Shown piece by piece: positions 1,767 to 33,137 of a DNA stretch of 64,000 nucleotides. Source of the stretch: Acidobacteriota bacterium (GTDB lineage: Bacteria > Acidobacteriota > Terriglobia > Acidiferrales > UBA7541); assembly GCA_013289585.1 (NCBI GenBank), contig JABCZR010000001.1, forward strand, positions 248,001 to 312,000. Direction: 5' to 3'. Made by a program: the position numbers and the translations under genes. Below the pieces are notes generated by a model. The model was not told the DNA's origin. It ran no database searches and saw only the letters and a program-made list of their open reading frames with translations. Within the stretch, counting starts at the first letter, position 1, and each line of letters opens with the position of its first letter.

Positions 1767-2879
1767 ATGAAACGTACATTTTCTCTGCTCGCCATCCTGC
1801 TCCTGGCCGTTACTGTCCAAGCGCAAGACCCGCCTCCGCTCATCTCGCCCGAAGTCCACTCCGACAATCGCGTCACTTTTCGCTTCCGCGGCCCCAACGA
1901 TAAAGAAGTCGCCGTCTCTCTGGAAGGCATCTCGACCCCAATCCCCATGCAAAAGGATGATCAGGGCGTCTGGAGCATCACTACCGATCCTCTCCCTGCC
2001 GATTTTTACGGCTACACCATCATCGCCGACGGCGTCAGCCTCTTCGATCCTTCCAACTTCGCCATCAAGCCCAATTTTCTCTATCGCGCCAGCGAACTCC
2101 ACGTTCCCGGCCCGTCTCTTCCTTGGGAAATCGCCGACGTGCCCCATGGCGAAATTCATCATCATTTTTACAAGTCCGCAGTTGTCGGTGACCATCGCTC
2201 CTACTTCGTTTACACGCCGCCCGGCTACGATAGTCGCGCCAAAAAACCCTATCCCGTCCTCTATCTCCTCCACGGTTACAGCGATGACGCCACCGCCTGG
2301 ACCGCCGTCGGCCGCGCCAACATCATCCTCGACAACCTCATCGCTCAGGGCAAAGCCAAACCCATGCTCGTCGTCATGCCGCTCGGCTACGGCGCTCCCG
2401 AAGTTCTTCTTCCCAACTCCGGCGTCTTCCACGATCGCGCGCTCACCGACCGCAACTTCGATAAATTCCGCGAAGCTTTGCTCAGCGAAGTCATCCCCCG
2501 CGTCGAAACCGGATACCTCGTCGTCAAGGACCGCAACTCCCGCGCCGTCGCCGGCCTTTCCATGGGCGGCTCCGAATCCTTGCTCACGGGTCTCAACACT
2601 CTGAAAACTTTTGCCTGGATCGGCGCTTTCAGCTCCGGCGGCCTCTCCGAAGACTTCGACAAGGAATTCCCCGCGCTCGATTCCAAATCCGCCCCGCCTC
2701 TCCGCTTGCTCTGGATTGCCTGCGGCACCGACGATCACCTGATCGATATCAACCGCAAACTTCGTGCCTGGCTCGCCTCCGAAAATATCCAGCACGTGGA
2801 CATTGAGACTCCCGGCTCCCACACCTGGATGGTCTGGCGCCGCAATCTCGCCGAATTCGCTCCACTCCTGTTCCACTGA
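1767..2879 (+). CDS. Secreted alpha/beta-hydrolase esterase (CE1 / esterase D-like) with N-terminal E-set domain
   Basis: A 370-residue protein beginning with a clear signal peptide (KRTFSLLAILLLAVTVQAQ). Residues about 25-120 look like the immunoglobulin-like E-set module found before CE1 esterases. The catalytic domain has the lid phrase YPVLYLLHGYSDD, the nucleophile elbow G-L-S-M-G-G near Ser265, an acid in GTDDH near 320 and the His of GSHTW near 351. Related enzymes are feruloyl or acetyl-xylan esterases; substrate is not determinable here. The ATG at 1767 has GAGG seven bases upstream; the longer reading from 1689 lacks a signal peptide at its start. The cupin gene follows 8 bases later. 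Confidence 0.88.
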   Translation: MKRTFSLLAILLLAVTVQAQDPPPLISPEVHSDNRVTFRFRGPNDKEVAVSLEGISTPIPMQKDDQGVWSITTDPLPADFYGYTIIADGVSLFDPSNFAIKPNFLYRASELHVPGPSLPWEIADVPHGEIHHHFYKSAVVGDHRSYFVYTPPGYDSRAKKPYPVLYLLHGYSDDATAWTAVGRANIILDNLIAQGKAKPMLVVMPLGYGAPEVLLPNSGVFHDRALTDRNFDKFREALLSEVIPRVETGYLVVKDRNSRAVAGLSMGGSESLLTGLNTLKTFAWIGAFSSGGLSEDFDKEFPALDSKSAPPLRLLWIACGTDDHLIDINRKLRAWLASENIQHVDIETPGSHTWMVWRRNLAEFAPLLFH

Positions 2880-2887
2880 GGCCAACC

Positions 2888-3361
2888 ATGAATAAAATCA
2901 CCGCAATCTCTGATAAAACGAAAAAGATGCTTCTCAATCTCGCGCCAGTGACAATCCTTCTCGCCGCTGTCGCCTCATCGCCGGGCCAAACCACGCATCA
3001 CGGCGTCGTAACACCTCTCGCCAGCGCCAAGCTCGCTTCCGACGGCCAACCCGCCTGCCTCAAATCCGCCCTCGAGAACGGCAATCCCGACGCCGGCCCA
3101 TCCACCTTCCTGCTCGAAGCTGCTCCCGGCTGCGTCGTCCCCGCCCATTCCCACACCGCCGAAGAACAATTGATCATCGTCCGCGGCGACGTCCTCACCG
3201 GCATGGATGGCATGTCCGACCAGACTCTCGGCCCCGGCGGCTTCGCCATGATGCCCGGCAAAGCCATGCACTGGTTCACCTGCCAATCCAAATCCCCCTG
3301 CCTCATGTTCGTCACCTTCGACCGCACCTACGACATCACCTGGGCCAAGCCCCAAAAGTAG
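2888..3361 (+). CDS. Exported cupin-domain protein
   Basis: A 157-residue protein with an N-terminal hydrophobic segment (residues about 13-31) ending near a plausible signal-peptidase site. The rest is one cupin barrel: motif 1 is P-A-H-S-H-T-A-E-E-Q with two His and a Glu as metal ligands, and motif 2 includes P-G-K-A-M-H-W with the third His. It lies 8 bases behind the esterase and is probably co-transcribed with it. Single-domain secreted cupins have varied functions, so no reaction is assigned. Confidence 0.8.
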   Translation: MNKITAISDKTKKMLLNLAPVTILLAAVASSPGQTTHHGVVTPLASAKLASDGQPACLKSALENGNPDAGPSTFLLEAAPGCVVPAHSHTAEEQLIIVRGDVLTGMDGMSDQTLGPGGFAMMPGKAMHWFTCQSKSPCLMFVTFDRTYDITWAKPQK

Positions 3362-3479: not shown

Positions 3480-3845
3480 ATGCCTCCCACCTTTGCAAAC
3501 GGAAAAATCTGCTATATCGAAATGCCCGCCACCGACATCGCCCGCTCCGCCGACTTCTAAAAACAAGTCTTCGGCTGGACCATCCGCAAACGCGGCAATG
3601 GCAGCACTGCCTTTGACGACGCCGTCGGCGAAGTCAACGGCACTTGGGTCCTCGGTCGCCCGTCCGCGGCAAAACCCGGCCTCCTCGTTTACATCATGGT
3701 AGGCAGCATAGCCGCAACGGTGGACGCGGTCGTAGCTCACGGCGGCGAAATCGTCCAATCCATCGGCGCCGACGCCCCCGAAATCACCGCCCGCTTCCGC
3801 GATCCCGCAGGAAACGTCATCGGCCTCTACCAGCCACCCACCTAG
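3480..3845 (+). pseudogene. Glyoxalase/VOC-fold gene interrupted by an in-frame stop at codon 27
   Basis: Read from the ATG at 3480, with GAAAGGA upstream, the frame gives a typical VOC start (NGKICYIEMPATDIARSADF) and then TAA at 3558-3560. The same frame continues as KQVFGWTIRKRGN and on to DPAGNVIGLYQPPT, ending with a TAG at 3843. VOC proteins usually have F-Y-K-Q-V-F-G-W here, so the stop replaces a tyrosine codon by a single change (TAT or TAC to TAA). The remainder is intact, which suggests a recent nonsense mutation or a base error. Full length would be about 121 codons. Confidence 0.85.
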
Positions 3846-4305
3846 CGCTCGAATGAGCCAGATCTGACTCTGGCGAGCTAAGTCAGGTTTCTGGCTTGCT
3901 ACACCAGGAGCTCTAGAAAGAAAGGCCACATGCCCTGTACGCGAGTGCCCTCGCTCACTCATATTCCTGAAGTATTACTTTAACCATATCTATAACTCTT
4001 TGCTATCGTCCGCACCTCGACACCTGTTTCATCTTTTGTTTTCAGCCGCTTTCGCATTTTTCATAGCTCCGTATCCTGTAACCCCTCTGTTCGCCTGTCC
4101 GTCGTGGCGGGCCACTCCCCTGTCCTGAGCGCAATCGAAGGACACGAAAACCGCCGGGTGTATACGAACAATTCCCATTCTGAAACCTACCTCCGCCCTG
4201 CCCTGAGCCGGGAAGGGCTCGCCCTCAGAACAACCTGTCTCCAAAGCCAAAGGACAACACCACCGCCTTTCCTATATCCTGATTCGGCGACCAAGGACCT
4301 CGCCG
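3846..4305. other. Gene-free stretch with two short inverted repeats
   Basis: No convincing gene. It contains a palindromic element around 4121-4144 (TGTCCT then GAGCGCAATCGA then AGGACA) resembling the widespread CCTGAGC-NNN-TCGAAGG interspersed repeat, and a smaller hairpin near 4204-4220 (GAGCC...GGCTC). The promoter of the downstream phosphodiesterase must lie here, but no strong -35/-10 pair stands out. Confidence 0.5.
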
Positions 4306-28911: not shown

Positions 28912-30693
28912 ATGAACCAACGGCTGCATCTGGCGGCAAGCGTCATCCTGCTTTCGGCGGGCCTTCTGGGTTGCGAGGACGCAGGGAAGAAGCCCGTCCA
29001 GGCACACGTTCCGGCGGTTGCGCCGGCGCCAGTGGCCGCGGCAGCCGTGCATGCGCCGCCGGAACTTCCGGCTTTGCCACTGACGACGCCGGGTCGCAAG
29101 CCACCCGTTTCGCTCTTGCCGCCGGTTCCCAGCGGGAAAGCGTATTTGATCGCCAAGGTCCGGGAAAAGTTTGCTTCCGGCGAGCAGAACTATAAAGCCG
29201 GCCATCTGGAAGCCGCGCGCAAGGATTTTGACGATGCTGTGGACTGGATGCTCGAAAGCGGGTACGACCCCAACAGCGATCCGCAGTTGAGCGAACTGTT
29301 TCATCGCGTGGTGGACACGGTGTATGCCTACGAATTGCAGGCCTTCCGCGCGGGAGACGGATTCAGCGAAGCGCCCGCCGTGCCCGCGGCGATTGACGAA
29401 GTCGCGGAGATGACTTTTCCGGTAGACCCCGGCCTGAAGGCACGCGCCGAGGAAGCTGCCAAGAACAGCCCTCACGACCTGCCCCTGACGGTGAACGACG
29501 AAGTCCTTTCTTTTGTCAATTTCTTTCAGACGCCGCGCGGGCGCGCGATCGTGGAAACCGGATTGCGCCGAGCCGGACGGTACCGGGAGATGATCTCGCG
29601 CGTTTTGCGCGAGGAAGGCGTGCCGCAAGACCTGATTTATCTGGCGCAGGCGGAGAGTGCGTTTCAGCCGCTGGCACTTTCGCGCGCGGGCGCGCGCGGC
29701 ATCTGGCAATTCGTGGCTTACCGCGGGAAGGAGTACGGTCTTCGTCAAACGTGGTGGATTGACGAACGCCAGGATCCGGAGAAAGCCACGCGCGCCGCCG
29801 CGCAGCACCTGCGCGATCTTTACAATCAGTTCGGCGACTGGTACCTGGCGATGGCCGCCTATAACTGCGGCCCGGGCAACGTGCAGAAAGCCATCGAGCG
29901 CACCGGCTATGCCGATTTCTGGGAGCTCTACAGCCGCAAGGTACTTCCGCGCGAAACGAAAAATTATGTGCCTATCATCCTGGCGCTGACGCTCATCGCC
30001 AAGGATGCGGCGCACTACAATGTACTGGTGGAGGCGGAAGCGCCGGTGCCGACGGACATCGTAAAAATCGGGCGGCCCATCGATCTTCGGCTGGTGGCAG
30101 AAACGATTGACGTGGATGTGGAGACGCTGCGAGCGCTCAATCCTTCGCTGTTGCGTCTGGCCACTCCCGACGATCCTTCATTCGAATTGCATTTGCCGCA
30201 GGGGACCGCCCCGAGATTCTCCGCCGAGATTGCGGACATTCCTCCGGACAAGTGGGTCAGTTGGCGCCGCCATCGCGTGGAAGCGGGCGAGACGCTCACA
30301 TCCCTCGCGAAAAAATACCGCGTGACGTCCGCGGCCATCGCCGACGCCAACAACCTGCCGAGGACCGCGGCGCTGGATCCGGGTGAGAAGCTGATCATCC
30401 CCGCGACGCAACCGCAGATGGAAACGAAGCGGCGATTGGTCAGTTACCGCGTGCGAAAAGGCGATACGCTGCTGGGAATCGCGGACCGCTTCAGCGTGGA
30501 CTCCGATGACGTTCGCAAATGGAACCGGTTGAAATCCAATAAGGTGAGCCGCGGGATGGTCTTGCGCATTTACACCCTCGGTGGCGCGCCGGAGACATCC
30601 CCGGTGCACGCGCATGCCAAGGCGAAGAAGAAGGCCCCCAGCGCTTCGACGGGCAGTACGCCAGGTGGGGCTGTAGCCGCAAACCATAATTAA
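28912..30693 (+). CDS. mltD: Membrane-bound lytic murein transglycosylase D-like lipoprotein with LysM domains
   Basis: A 593-residue lipoprotein with lipobox L-L-G-C (Cys about 21). A Pro/Ala-rich spacer follows. The SLT domain spans about 225-360: the catalytic Glu is in [23 protein letters not shown], and [13 protein letters not shown] matches the family. Two LysM repeats lie near the C-terminus ([27 protein letters not shown] and [25 protein letters not shown]), with a more degenerate one before them. It cleaves peptidoglycan in the periplasm and remains outer-membrane attached. Confidence 0.92.
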
Positions 30694-30947: not shown

Positions 30948-31250
30948 ATGGATTTCGAGAAAGATAATCTGGAAGACGACAACGAGCTGTCACGGCTGGA
31001 AGACGACGAGGAGTTGGCCGGCGAAACCGAGGAGATCGTTGAAACAGAAGAGGAAGAACTCGTAATCGTGGGAGACGATTCCGAGGAAGAAGCTCCCGCT
31101 CCGAAGCCCGCAGCCAAACCGGCGGCGAAGAAGCCTGCCAAGAAAGCCGCAAAGAAAAAACCTGCAAAGAAGAAAAAAGCAGCGAAGAAATCCAAGCCGA
31201 AAAAGAAAGCGGCAAAGAAGAAGTCCGCAAAGAAGAAAAAACGGCGCTAA
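30948..31250 (+). CDS. Acidic-headed, lysine/alanine-tailed histone-H1-like protein
   Basis: A 100-residue protein in two halves. Residues 1-45 are strongly acidic (EDDNELSRLEDDEELAGETEEIVETEEEEL). Residues 50-100 consist of repeats of A-K-K/P-A-K-K and end K-K-K-K-R-R, like the C-terminal tail of histone H1 and bacterial H1-like proteins. It probably binds nucleic acid, with the acidic head possibly tuning affinity. GGGGAGG lies about 6 bases before the ATG, and a good terminator follows. Confidence 0.75.
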   Translation: MDFEKDNLEDDNELSRLEDDEELAGETEEIVETEEEELVIVGDDSEEEAPAPKPAAKPAAKKPAKKAAKKKPAKKKKAAKKSKPKKKAAKKKSAKKKKRR

Positions 31251-31280
31251 ATACATAGCGATTGAAAATTCTCTTGCCGG

Positions 31281-31317
31281 AAAGGCCGGGACGTGAGTCC
31301 TGGCCTTTTCTTTTTTC
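31281..31317 (+). terminator. Rho-independent terminator after the H1-like gene
   Basis: AAAGGCC-G-GGAC-GTGA-GTCC-T-GGCCTTTT forms a stem of about ten pairs. It is followed by CTTTTTTCGG. Confidence 0.9.
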
Positions 31318-31460
31318 GGAATGGCGTCTCCCGGAGCGGAACGGGGGCGGTGCAGACCCTCTTCCCATCTTGAACTTCCGGTCTCTCGATTCAGGAATGT
31401 GACGGGGTCCGCGCATCTGCTGCTTGCCAGAAGCCGCAAGTACCACTAGCATAAACCCGT

Positions 31461-32264
31461 ATGTTACGGGCGCTGGAACAGATACGGCGGATGCGGGGAG
31501 GGGCGCAATCGCACTTGATGCGCTGCGCGGACGACAATTACTATGTGGTGAAATTTAAAAATAACCCTCAGCATCGGCGCGTCCTGGTCAATGAACTGCT
31601 CGGAACCAGACTGGCGGCGCGGCTGGGCTTGCCGACCGTCCCGGTAGCCATCGTCGAAGTTTCCGAGGAGTTGATCCGGCTGACGCCGGAGCTGGCCATG
31701 GAGCTGCCGCGCTCGCGGATTCCGTGCCAATCTGGGCCACAGTTCGGCTCGCGCTACCCCGGAGATCCGCGGCAACTGACTCTGCACGATTTTCTCCCGG
31801 ATGAGCAGCTGGGTGAGGTTGAAGATCTGCATACTTTCGCGGGGATGCTGGTCTTCGACAAGTGGACCTGCAATACCAACGGCCGGCAGACGGTGTTCTT
31901 CAAGGAAAAGCAGGAGGACGCAGTTCACTACGAAACGCGGATGATCGACCAGGGCTTCTGCTTCAACGCCGGTGAGTGGAATTTTCCCGATGCGCCCTTG
32001 CGCGGCTTGTACGCCCGCAATCGCGTCTATCAGGGCGTCACCGGGATGGAATCGTTTGCGCCTTGGATCGAGCGATTGGAAAAGGGAGTGACCGAGCGAG
32101 TTCTTGACGAAGTCAGCCTGGAGATCCCGCCCGCGTGGTACGAAGATGATTATGACGCGCTGTTGCGGCTACTCGAACAGCTGCACCGCCGCCGTCCGCG
32201 CGTGCCGGATCTGATCCTCGAAGCCAAGAGAACCAATCGCCAGCCGTTTCCGAACTGGATGTGA
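31461..32264 (+). CDS. HipA-like protein kinase (HipA_2 family)
   Basis: A 267-residue kinase-fold protein. The active-site set is visible: ATP-binding Lys31 in Y-V-V-K-F, Glu45 in V-N-E-L-L-G (helix C), catalytic Asp133 with Asn138/Asn140 in F-D-K-W-T-C-N-T-N, and metal-binding Asp163 in M-I-D-Q-G-F. It thus looks catalytically competent. The opening LRALEQIRRMRGGAQSHLM is the family start, although no ribosome site is visible before it. Unlike classical HipBA there is no HTH partner; a DUF3037 gene follows after 3 bases. The target is unknown. Confidence 0.82.
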   Translation: MLRALEQIRRMRGGAQSHLMRCADDNYYVVKFKNNPQHRRVLVNELLGTRLAARLGLPTVPVAIVEVSEELIRLTPELAMELPRSRIPCQSGPQFGSRYPGDPRQLTLHDFLPDEQLGEVEDLHTFAGMLVFDKWTCNTNGRQTVFFKEKQEDAVHYETRMIDQGFCFNAGEWNFPDAPLRGLYARNRVYQGVTGMESFAPWIERLEKGVTERVLDEVSLEIPPAWYEDDYDALLRLLEQLHRRRPRVPDLILEAKRTNRQPFPNWM

Positions 32265-32267
32265 ACC

Positions 32268-33137
32268 ATGGATGAAATTTCTGCCGCACGGCAAAGTGCC
32301 GAGACGGAAAACGTAGAACGAACCTGCGCCTACCGCATCCTGCGCTATACGCCGAACCTGGTCCGCGACGAGTGGGTGAACATCGGCGTACTGCTTTTCG
32401 ATCCCGTGTCCGGCGAACGACGGCTGCGCTTGATCGAGGAAGCAGAGGAGTACCGGCGCGTGCGACGGCTTCACCCCGGGGCCGATGAATTGCTTCTCCG
32501 CGCCCTTCGCGACGACCTGGAAGATCGGTTTCAATCGGCGGCGGCACTCGGCAATGGCGGCGGGAGCAGCAGCAACTGGCTGCAGGTCCTGGCCAAGTGG
32601 GACGAGACGCTTTCGAACACGCTGCAGCTCGCTCCGCAGAAAGGCGTCTTTGCCGCGGACCTGGACGCCGAACTCGAGCGCCTGTATGCCGATCACGTGG
32701 CTCCACAGCGCACTGGCGGCCGCGTGGGCGCGCCGCGCACTCGCGCAGCGATGCGCGCGTATTGCTCGCAAGTCTTCCGGCAGGCGCGGCTGTGGGATCG
32801 TCTGGAAAAATCCGTTCGGGTGGAGGAATTCACGTTCCCGGGAGATCCCATGCGCATCGACTACAGCTATCGCCGCAACGGGACTCGCGGATTTGTCCAC
32901 ACACTCTCCGTTACGCGCTCCCCGAACGACAGCAAGGTCCTCGCTTATACCGCGAAACACATCACTGCCAAATCTTCCTTGAAAACCGAATTTGCCGCGG
33001 TCACCGACGTGCCCCTGGACGCCGGCGACAGCCGCCACCATTTTGTGCGTGACGCGCTTCGCGAGGCAGGCATTGAACCCGTGCCGCTGGAGGGCTTCGC
33101 CGTATGGGTGGCCAAGCTGAAGTCCCTGCTGCAATGA
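32268..33137 (+). CDS. DUF3037-family protein paired with the HipA-like kinase
   Basis: A 289-residue protein. CAYRILRYTPNLVRDEWVNIGVLLFDP is the characteristic DUF3037 opening, and RLHPGADELLLRALRDDLEDRF follows. A Gly/Ser linker (about 97-103) separates a second part with SYRRNGTRGFVHTLSVTRSPNDSKVLAYTAKHI, a beta-rich region. It has no known catalytic motif. The 3-base gap from the kinase gene and conservation of the pairing in many bacteria (from general knowledge) suggest a functional two-gene unit. Confidence 0.8.
   Translation: MDEISAARQSAETENVERTCAYRILRYTPNLVRDEWVNIGVLLFDPVSGERRLRLIEEAEEYRRVRRLHPGADELLLRALRDDLEDRFQSAAALGNGGGSSSNWLQVLAKWDETLSNTLQLAPQKGVFAADLDAELERLYADHVAPQRTGGRVGAPRTRAAMRAYCSQVFRQARLWDRLEKSVRVEEFTFPGDPMRIDYSYRRNGTRGFVHTLSVTRSPNDSKVLAYTAKHITAKSSLKTEFAAVTDVPLDAGDSRHHFVRDALREAGIEPVPLEGFAVWVAKLKSLLQ

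Follow-up and report, generated by a model that had tools for sequence, protein, structure and literature searches.

The HipA-like kinase gene in the window (the whole stretch of 64,000 nucleotides analysed here, from an Acidobacteriota bacterium) and the DUF3037 gene that follows it form a pair which, as judged from sequence comparisons, is a vertically inherited and catalytically altered branch of the HipAD system. The reading that we favour, though at a little short of an even chance, is that of a chromosomal, inherited complex of HipAD type in which the kinase-like subunit would be non-catalytic or only weakly active. This reading builds on the co-inheritance of the two genes, a largely taxonomic tree, low dN/dS ratios and a kinase fold that retains the ATP-site Lys, Glu and Asp.

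Organization of the locus

The two open reading frames are intact and lie on the forward strand with a gap of 3 bases, as the preliminary description had placed them and as the ORFs and Pfam matches uphold. The kinase-fold protein (31461..32264, 267 residues) was assigned from Pfam, PADLOC, alignments and an AlphaFold2 model, and its two-domain partner (32268..33137, 289 residues) from Pfam, PADLOC and a model. The kinase matches the Pfam family HipA_2 (PF20613) over residues 8-140 with an E-value of 3.5e-15 and 56.3 bits (gathering cut-off 27); the partner matches DUF3037 (PF11236) with an E-value of 8.3e-15 and 55.5 bits (cut-off 22.6), the domain spanning residues 22-144 (32331..32699, forward strand). 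The genome to which the window belongs holds one copy of each family. NCBIfam profiles gave 0 matches, and PDB sequence searches with the two proteins gave no significant match (best E-values 0.31 and 0.36).

The pair is flanked upstream by a lytic-transglycosylase/LysM (SLT) gene (28912-30693) and downstream by a convergent response-regulator/SpoIIE gene, both identified by Pfam, and genes of pyruvate-dehydrogenase type, named by eye, also lie downstream. Directly 5' of the pair is an acidic-then-lysine-rich, histone-H1-like ORF (30948-31250); an ORF in a similar place at another locus (L073) matches HC2 with 39.9 bits, just below the cut-off of 40. No HipB-like gene (HTH antitoxin or HipS) was found among the Pfam-scanned neighbours, namely the transglycosylase/LysM gene, the H1-like ORF and the response-regulator/SpoIIE gene, and for these neighbours the earlier remark that the locus has no HipB is borne out.

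A motif scan and aligned loci reveal a promoter-like TTGCCA-17-TAGCAT (31424..31452, forward strand) that stops 8 bases 5' of the kinase ATG; 1 such motif was found against 0.4 in shuffled sequences, and the hexamer regions are discernible across 9 aligned loci. Because the hexamers lie so near the ATG, the sequence suggests that the kinase mRNA may be leaderless. A hairpin scan also picked out a terminator-like hairpin 3' of the upstream H1-like ORF (31279..31310, forward strand), the count of such hairpins (2, against 2.8 in shuffles) being not above chance.

A kinase fold with Asn at the catalytic position

The AlphaFold2 model of the kinase (pLDDT 91.6) has a fold that is, on structural comparison, HipA/CtkA-like, with Z scores of 15.3 to CtkA and 13.1 to Shewanella HipA. 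Lys31, Glu45 and Asp163 fit the Lys, Glu and Asp of the ATP site. The loop after helix 125-136, defined from alignments and the model, comprises codons 138-143 (Asn-Thr-Asn-Gly-Arg-Gln; 31872..31889, forward strand). In the fetched sequence of E. coli HipA this loop reads FQWLIGATDGHAKNF and contains D309 and N314; the aligned loop of the window kinase reads FDKWTCNTNGRQTVF. We take D309 to be the catalytic base of HipA, N314 to have an active-site role as well, and Asp210 of HipT to be the equivalent of D309. Asp210 is termed catalytic in excerpts of the HipT paper (PMC10627512), and the title of a PDB entry names a HipA(D309Q) variant.

In the MAFFT alignment and in two hhalign comparisons, the position of D309 and of the loop Asp of relatives is taken by Asn140. 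N314, five residues past D309, aligns with Val145 in the MAFFT alignment; one hhalign comparison makes the loop two residues shorter and places Gln143 opposite the Asn found in the usual motif. If the loop is indeed two residues shorter, Gln143 may stand in for N314. On alignment and model, the protein is a kinase fold without the catalytic Asp, which is how pseudokinases are defined structurally. The preliminary description had credited the kinase with all active-site residues; this stands for Lys31, Glu45 and Asp163 and fails for the catalytic Asp, since Asn140 occupies its position and the Asp133 named instead sits in helix 125-136 of the model. As a candidate catalytic base Asp133 was rejected, because it lies in that helix and is also kept where the usual Asp stands seven residues later.

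The alignment used for conservation has 68 rows, 9 of them repeat fetches, two loci lacking a kinase ORF (L097 and L098) having been dropped. Lys31, Asn44 and Glu45 are identical in 68/68 rows, and Asp133, Asn138, Arg142, Gln143 and Asp163 in all 67 rows that have letters there. The invariance of these last five residues counts against a non-catalytic reading, under which it must also be weighed that kinases with Asn140 could be active.

The partner protein

The model of the partner (pLDDT 90.8, with a pTM of 0.58 that leaves the relative placing of the domains unsure) consists of the N-terminal DUF3037 domain and a C-terminal domain formed by residues 154-289 (32727..33134, forward strand). 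The top fold matches of the latter are PD-(D/E)XK nucleases: Can2 (Z 10.6 over 123 residues), PspGI (10.4) and Cdn1 (9.8). Asp198 is retained in at least 90% of 22 partners. The (D/E)xK residues are not recognisable in this domain, the strand expected to carry them reading VHTLS or similar, and they are likewise lacking in the partner of the PDC-M66 pair at locus L215. We read the C-terminal domain, from its modelled fold and its sequence, as a putative nuclease fold without an active site.

Pairing of the two families

The kinase and the DUF3037 protein are paired far beyond chance, as a count of their adjacency, proposed in the preliminary description, makes plain. Among 101 relatives, the kinase lies directly upstream on the same strand in 62 of 64 partner places, decayed copies counted. 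Across 297 genomes of the Acidobacteriota, a HipA_2 match lies no more than 1.5 kb upstream of 63/67 DUF3037 matches; conversely, a partner accompanies 63 of the 72 HipA_2 matches above the cut-off and 0/17 of those below it. The pair is also present in 78 of the best 80 of at least 545 named loci. Of these 80, 78 are labelled Acidobacteriota or a subgroup thereof, such as Terriglobia or Candidatus Acidiferrum; the other two, labelled Bacillota (L151) and Betaproteobacteria (L174), are apparently the same as loci of genomes G055 and G006, which belong to the window's family and genus, respectively.

In a sample of 200 genomes of the class, 154 carry the kinase (133/162 among those of good quality). 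Both genes occur in 146 of the 200, the kinase only in 8, the partner only in 9 and neither in 37. When the 40 genomes of family f7 are set aside, because their partner-like match is another protein (see below), the corresponding counts are 107, 7, 9 and 37. Among the listed partner matches of at least 240 bits, 101/107 have a listed kinase match directly upstream, and of the remaining six, G009 and G045 have an upstream kinase according to the set of 101 relatives. Two of the 8 kinase-only genomes are less than 60% complete, and the three inspected (G019, G041 and G086) have Asp at position 140. At a further locus (L221), a kinase with Asp140 (2289-3158) has no downstream partner and adjoins a divergent ORF of 144 residues that is DUF3037-like (3504-3938).

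Residue 140 was compared with pairing in three sets of loci. Among 58 non-repeat kinases with the motif (9 repeats left out, and the fragment L095 being without the motif), where a partner means a partner match within the same fetched locus, Asn140 is present in 40, all 40 with a partner, and Asp140 in 18, of which 7 have a partner, or 8 if L081 is counted, where a PF11236 match starts directly after the kinase at the contig end. In the best 80 of the at least 545 named loci, which overlap the set of 58, all 75 kinases with Asn140 and 3 of the 5 with Asp140 have a partner. The 21 matching loci from IMG/VR comprise 14 with Asn and 7 with Asp, and all but one of them (L273, Asp) have a partner match. 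Asp140 members thus have partners too, which also weighs against a non-catalytic reading.

In a tree of 89 kinases, residue 140 changes state at least 5 times, and strong branch support requires three of these changes. Two large clades consist mostly of Asn140 kinases; their deepest split has weak support. The association between Asn140 and pairing did not reach significance in a test that corrects for ancestry, with L081 set to 'paired' by hand: of 4 independent pairs, about 3 are in agreement and none in opposition (median p 0.25). Both the test and the 89-kinase tree omit the 9 repeats, four repeats among the named loci (L156, L158, L164 and L174), the named loci L103-L151 and L224.

Family f7 has a pattern of its own. 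The four fetched f7 loci carry the kinase without an adjacent partner, and PF11236 matches in 1 of 5 f7 genomes, unlinked to the kinase. A second partner profile (A2) matches in 39 of the 40 f7 genomes that have the kinase. None of the 12 such matches fetched (L274-L285) has a kinase match inside its 5-kb stretch, and in 12/12 the aligned C-terminal part resembles an S24-peptidase domain. Pfam analysis of six recovered S24 in 6/6 and DUF3037 above the cut-off in one, weakly in four and not in the remaining one. In the protein at L284 (2500-3318), for instance, a DUF3037-like N-terminal domain is fused to an S24 (LexA-type) peptidase-like domain. We had considered f7 to prove that cells tolerate the kinase in the absence of DUF3037, and dropped the argument in view of the A2 matches elsewhere in 39/40 of its genomes; the family is no clear evidence either way on this point.

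Inheritance, loss and selection

Leaving extra copies aside, the best full-length matches become less identical as taxonomic distance grows. A quick-method tree of 71 kinases, with family labels assigned by hand and without the 9 repeat loci and the fragment L095, requires 11 changes for 11 groups, one of which is a subtype label (minimum 10, shuffled mean 29.9). Family f1 needs 3 of these changes and f11 needs 2, and L225, which comes from another class, is placed among the f1 kinases. Such placements suggest that extra copies may have passed from one lineage to another. Of 38 fetched kinase loci, 18, from families f1, f2, f6, f7 and f12, have the SLT transglycosylase gene upstream; the other 20, including all those of f4, f8 and f11 and the extra copies, are without SLT in the stretch fetched.

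The corresponding sites were fetched from ten congeners that lack the full pair there. In five of them (G017, G018, G019, G024 and G028) the neighbours are the same and both genes are missing from between them. In G025 the response-regulator gene is absent together with the pair, G032 retains 21 kinase codons, the end of the partner survives in G030, G021 shows some 2.7 kb in which neither gene is matched, and in G022 the contig ends at the site. Fragments of the pair also occur at the site in G006 and G016 and on another contig in G029. For two other genera, both genes are missing from the site in G041, and the 3 kb that follow the transglycosylase in G048 contain no match; a transglycosylase match was absent from three further genomes. 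The pair has thus been lost repeatedly in the window's genus, which suits an accessory role in defence or as a toxin-antitoxin pair. Taken together, the taxonomic tree and the empty sites and remnants indicate an old pair that moves little and can be dispensed with.

The dN/dS ratios of the intact copies compared are low. The dN/dS of the kinase is 0.068-0.141 between the window and 5 congeners and 0.060-0.172 in 7 other pairs, and that of the partner is 0.145-0.209 for the 5 congeners; many dS values exceed 1, which makes these ratios rough.

Searches of mobile elements with the kinase gave hits in 2 of 72,556 plasmid records, which share 25-28% identity with it and have no partner match nearby, and in 0 of 50,697 phage records. 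One HipA-family kinase on a Peribacillus plasmid (L183, 3977-4753) lies by a glycosyltransferase and near rhamnose genes, with no DUF3037 among 9 annotated features. A partner of another subtype (L214) matches one Klebsiella phage record at 29% identity and no plasmid record. In IMG/VR, 21 loci match, 20 of them with a partner match downstream. We considered these as phage genes and rejected the idea, since the flanks of 20 of the 21 (L253-L272) are like those of cellular Acidobacteriota loci, L273 being the exception; the contigs L253-L272 are, to judge by these flanks, probably host sequence. The pattern that marks mobile defence systems (patchy, hopping between lineages, borne on plasmids or phages) was thus not found, L225 being the exception in the tree.

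Interpretation

In the inherited complex that we favour, the two proteins would form a stable assembly whose kinase-like subunit would bind ATP and phosphorylate weakly or not at all. The complex would then act as a nucleotide-gated switch, associated with nucleic acid, of growth or of the response to phage, in contrast to a kinase toxin that is freely active and whose antitoxin is disposable. A more particular history, possible if on the whole doubtful, is that HipAD became fixed in an ancestor of much of the class and that in two large clades both enzymes were switched off and kept for binding and signalling.

An ordinary HipAD toxin-antitoxin or abortive-infection system, which we consider a serious contender though still rather improbable, would have a kinase that works in spite of Asn140 and is toxic to the cell, perhaps through phosphorylation of a translation factor, until DUF3037 neutralises it and phage frees it again. 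The homology to PDC-M66A and PDC-M66B (E-values 7.9e-10 and 6.6e-9) speaks for such a system, as do relatives proven in defence, in which, according to excerpts of two papers, the kinase is toxic without DUF3037 (PMC12548924) and a predicted catalytic residue is required (PMC13092281). The tight pairing (62/64, 63/67 and, in the best named loci, 78/80) suits a toxin and its antitoxin, as do the repeated loss of the pair and the lack of any partnerless Asn140 kinase in two overlapping sets; however, 8 of the 154 kinase-bearing class genomes have no partner match, the three inspected being Asp140, and the catalytic Asp itself is replaced by Asn140. The largely vertical, class-wide inheritance also argues against it, together with the scarcity of the kinase on plasmids (2/72,556 records, at 25-28% identity) and its absence from the phage records (0/50,697).

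SelO pseudokinases transfer AMP. A changed chemistry, in which the Asn-x-Asn/Asp-x-Arg-Gln loop would support another nucleotide reaction with DUF3037 as regulator or substrate, would account for the strict conservation of Asn138, Arg142, Gln143 and Asp163 (67/67) and of Lys31, Asn44 and Glu45 (68/68) and for the low dN/dS, but this conservation could be structural, and we think such a chemistry unlikely. It is very improbable that the pair once served in defence and is now decaying: remnants and empty sites do occur within the window's genus, but dN/dS is well below 1 in intact copies and both ORFs of the window are intact.

If the more particular history, with HipAD fixed in an ancestor and both enzymes switched off, is true, the pair would be a domesticated immune module in which a kinase-fold protein of altered catalysis is complexed with a partner whose nuclease fold lacks the catalytic residues. 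HipAD has been published only recently. The branch described here keeps the pair class-deep, and many of its members, all of them partnered, have a changed catalytic Asp; it so offers a natural experiment on the roles of both proteins. It also calls for caution, since profile-based tools may tag an inherited and possibly non-catalytic module as phage defence.

Comparison with known systems

With HipBA and HipBST the window kinase shares the kinase fold (Z about 11 to 13). It differs from them in covering HipA only from about residue 145 onwards, in having no HipB among the scanned neighbours and in that the catalytic Asp is not conserved. A 2021 phylogeny of HipA kinases makes no mention of DUF3037 in its main text (PMC8262856).

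A second subtype, in which HipA_2 is followed by a short DUF3037 protein, has the same gene order as the window pair and is adjacent in 30 of 30 cases; it occurs also on Bacteroides and Parabacteroides plasmids. It differs in its partner, which mostly lacks the C-terminal domain (open frame of at most 203 codons in 25/30), and in its kinase loop, which is Asp-Arg-Thr-x-x-Asn in the 8 examined. Loci L206-L213 belong to this subtype with the Asp...Asn loop, and many f11 genomes hold both subtypes.

For HipAD, or DS-6, the DefensePredictor paper lists Brenes & Laub 2025 as its reference 35. The PADLOC profile PDC-M66A matches the kinase with an E-value of 7.9e-10 and 36.4 bits, and PDC-M66B matches the partner, over residues 20-146 only, with 6.6e-9 and 33.6 bits, both judged by E-value rather than by PADLOC's own cut-offs; 29 of the 30 kinases of one set (A1) match PDC-M66A at an E-value of 0.01. 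Against the 36 and 34 bits of the window, the L215 pair, a closer PDC-M66 match within the phylum, reaches 140 and 188 bits. PDC-M66 is the PADLOC name for the HipA-DUF3037 pair of Retron-Sda1, according to excerpts of PMC12548924, which also report that the retron-adjacent HipA-like kinase and DUF3037 protein protect against phage Bas51 without the retron. In the same excerpts, deletion of the kinase abolishes defence and deletion of DUF3037 is toxic (PMC12548924), and the earlier suggestion that DUF3037 may be the cognate antitoxin agrees, by analogy, with these relatives. DS-6, renamed HipAD, consists of a HipA-related kinase and a DUF3037-DUF1829 protein, for which AlphaFold3 predicts a complex; a predicted catalytic residue of DS-6A is required for defence, which the mutant loses (DefensePredictor, PMC13092281, in excerpts). 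From the figure legends of that paper, DS-6 appears to have come from an E. coli screen. The claim of the preliminary description that the pair is an undescribed system is therefore withdrawn, since the PADLOC profiles and what is available of PMC12548924 and PMC13092281 already cover it as PDC-M66, DS-6 or HipAD.

Several features set the window branch apart from DS-6. DS-6B carries DUF1829, which matches in 0/22 partners of the window branch and not in L215. DS-6A needs a catalytic residue, whereas the catalytic Asp is changed to Asn140 in the window branch, a comparison of motifs that rests on PADLOC-matching relatives rather than on the DS-6 or Sda1 sequences themselves. DS-6 was probably drawn from an E. 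coli screen, whereas the window branch is chromosomal and largely vertical. Because the intact catalytic residue that DS-6 needs is absent here, we do not file the pair as a plain member of HipAD. The partner here also carries a second domain, which may differ in kind from the DUF1829 of DS-6B. Both protein families are common to the window and to the PDC-M66 pair of Retron-Sda1, and, as in HipAD, a HipA-like kinase is accompanied by a DUF3037 protein and no HipB.
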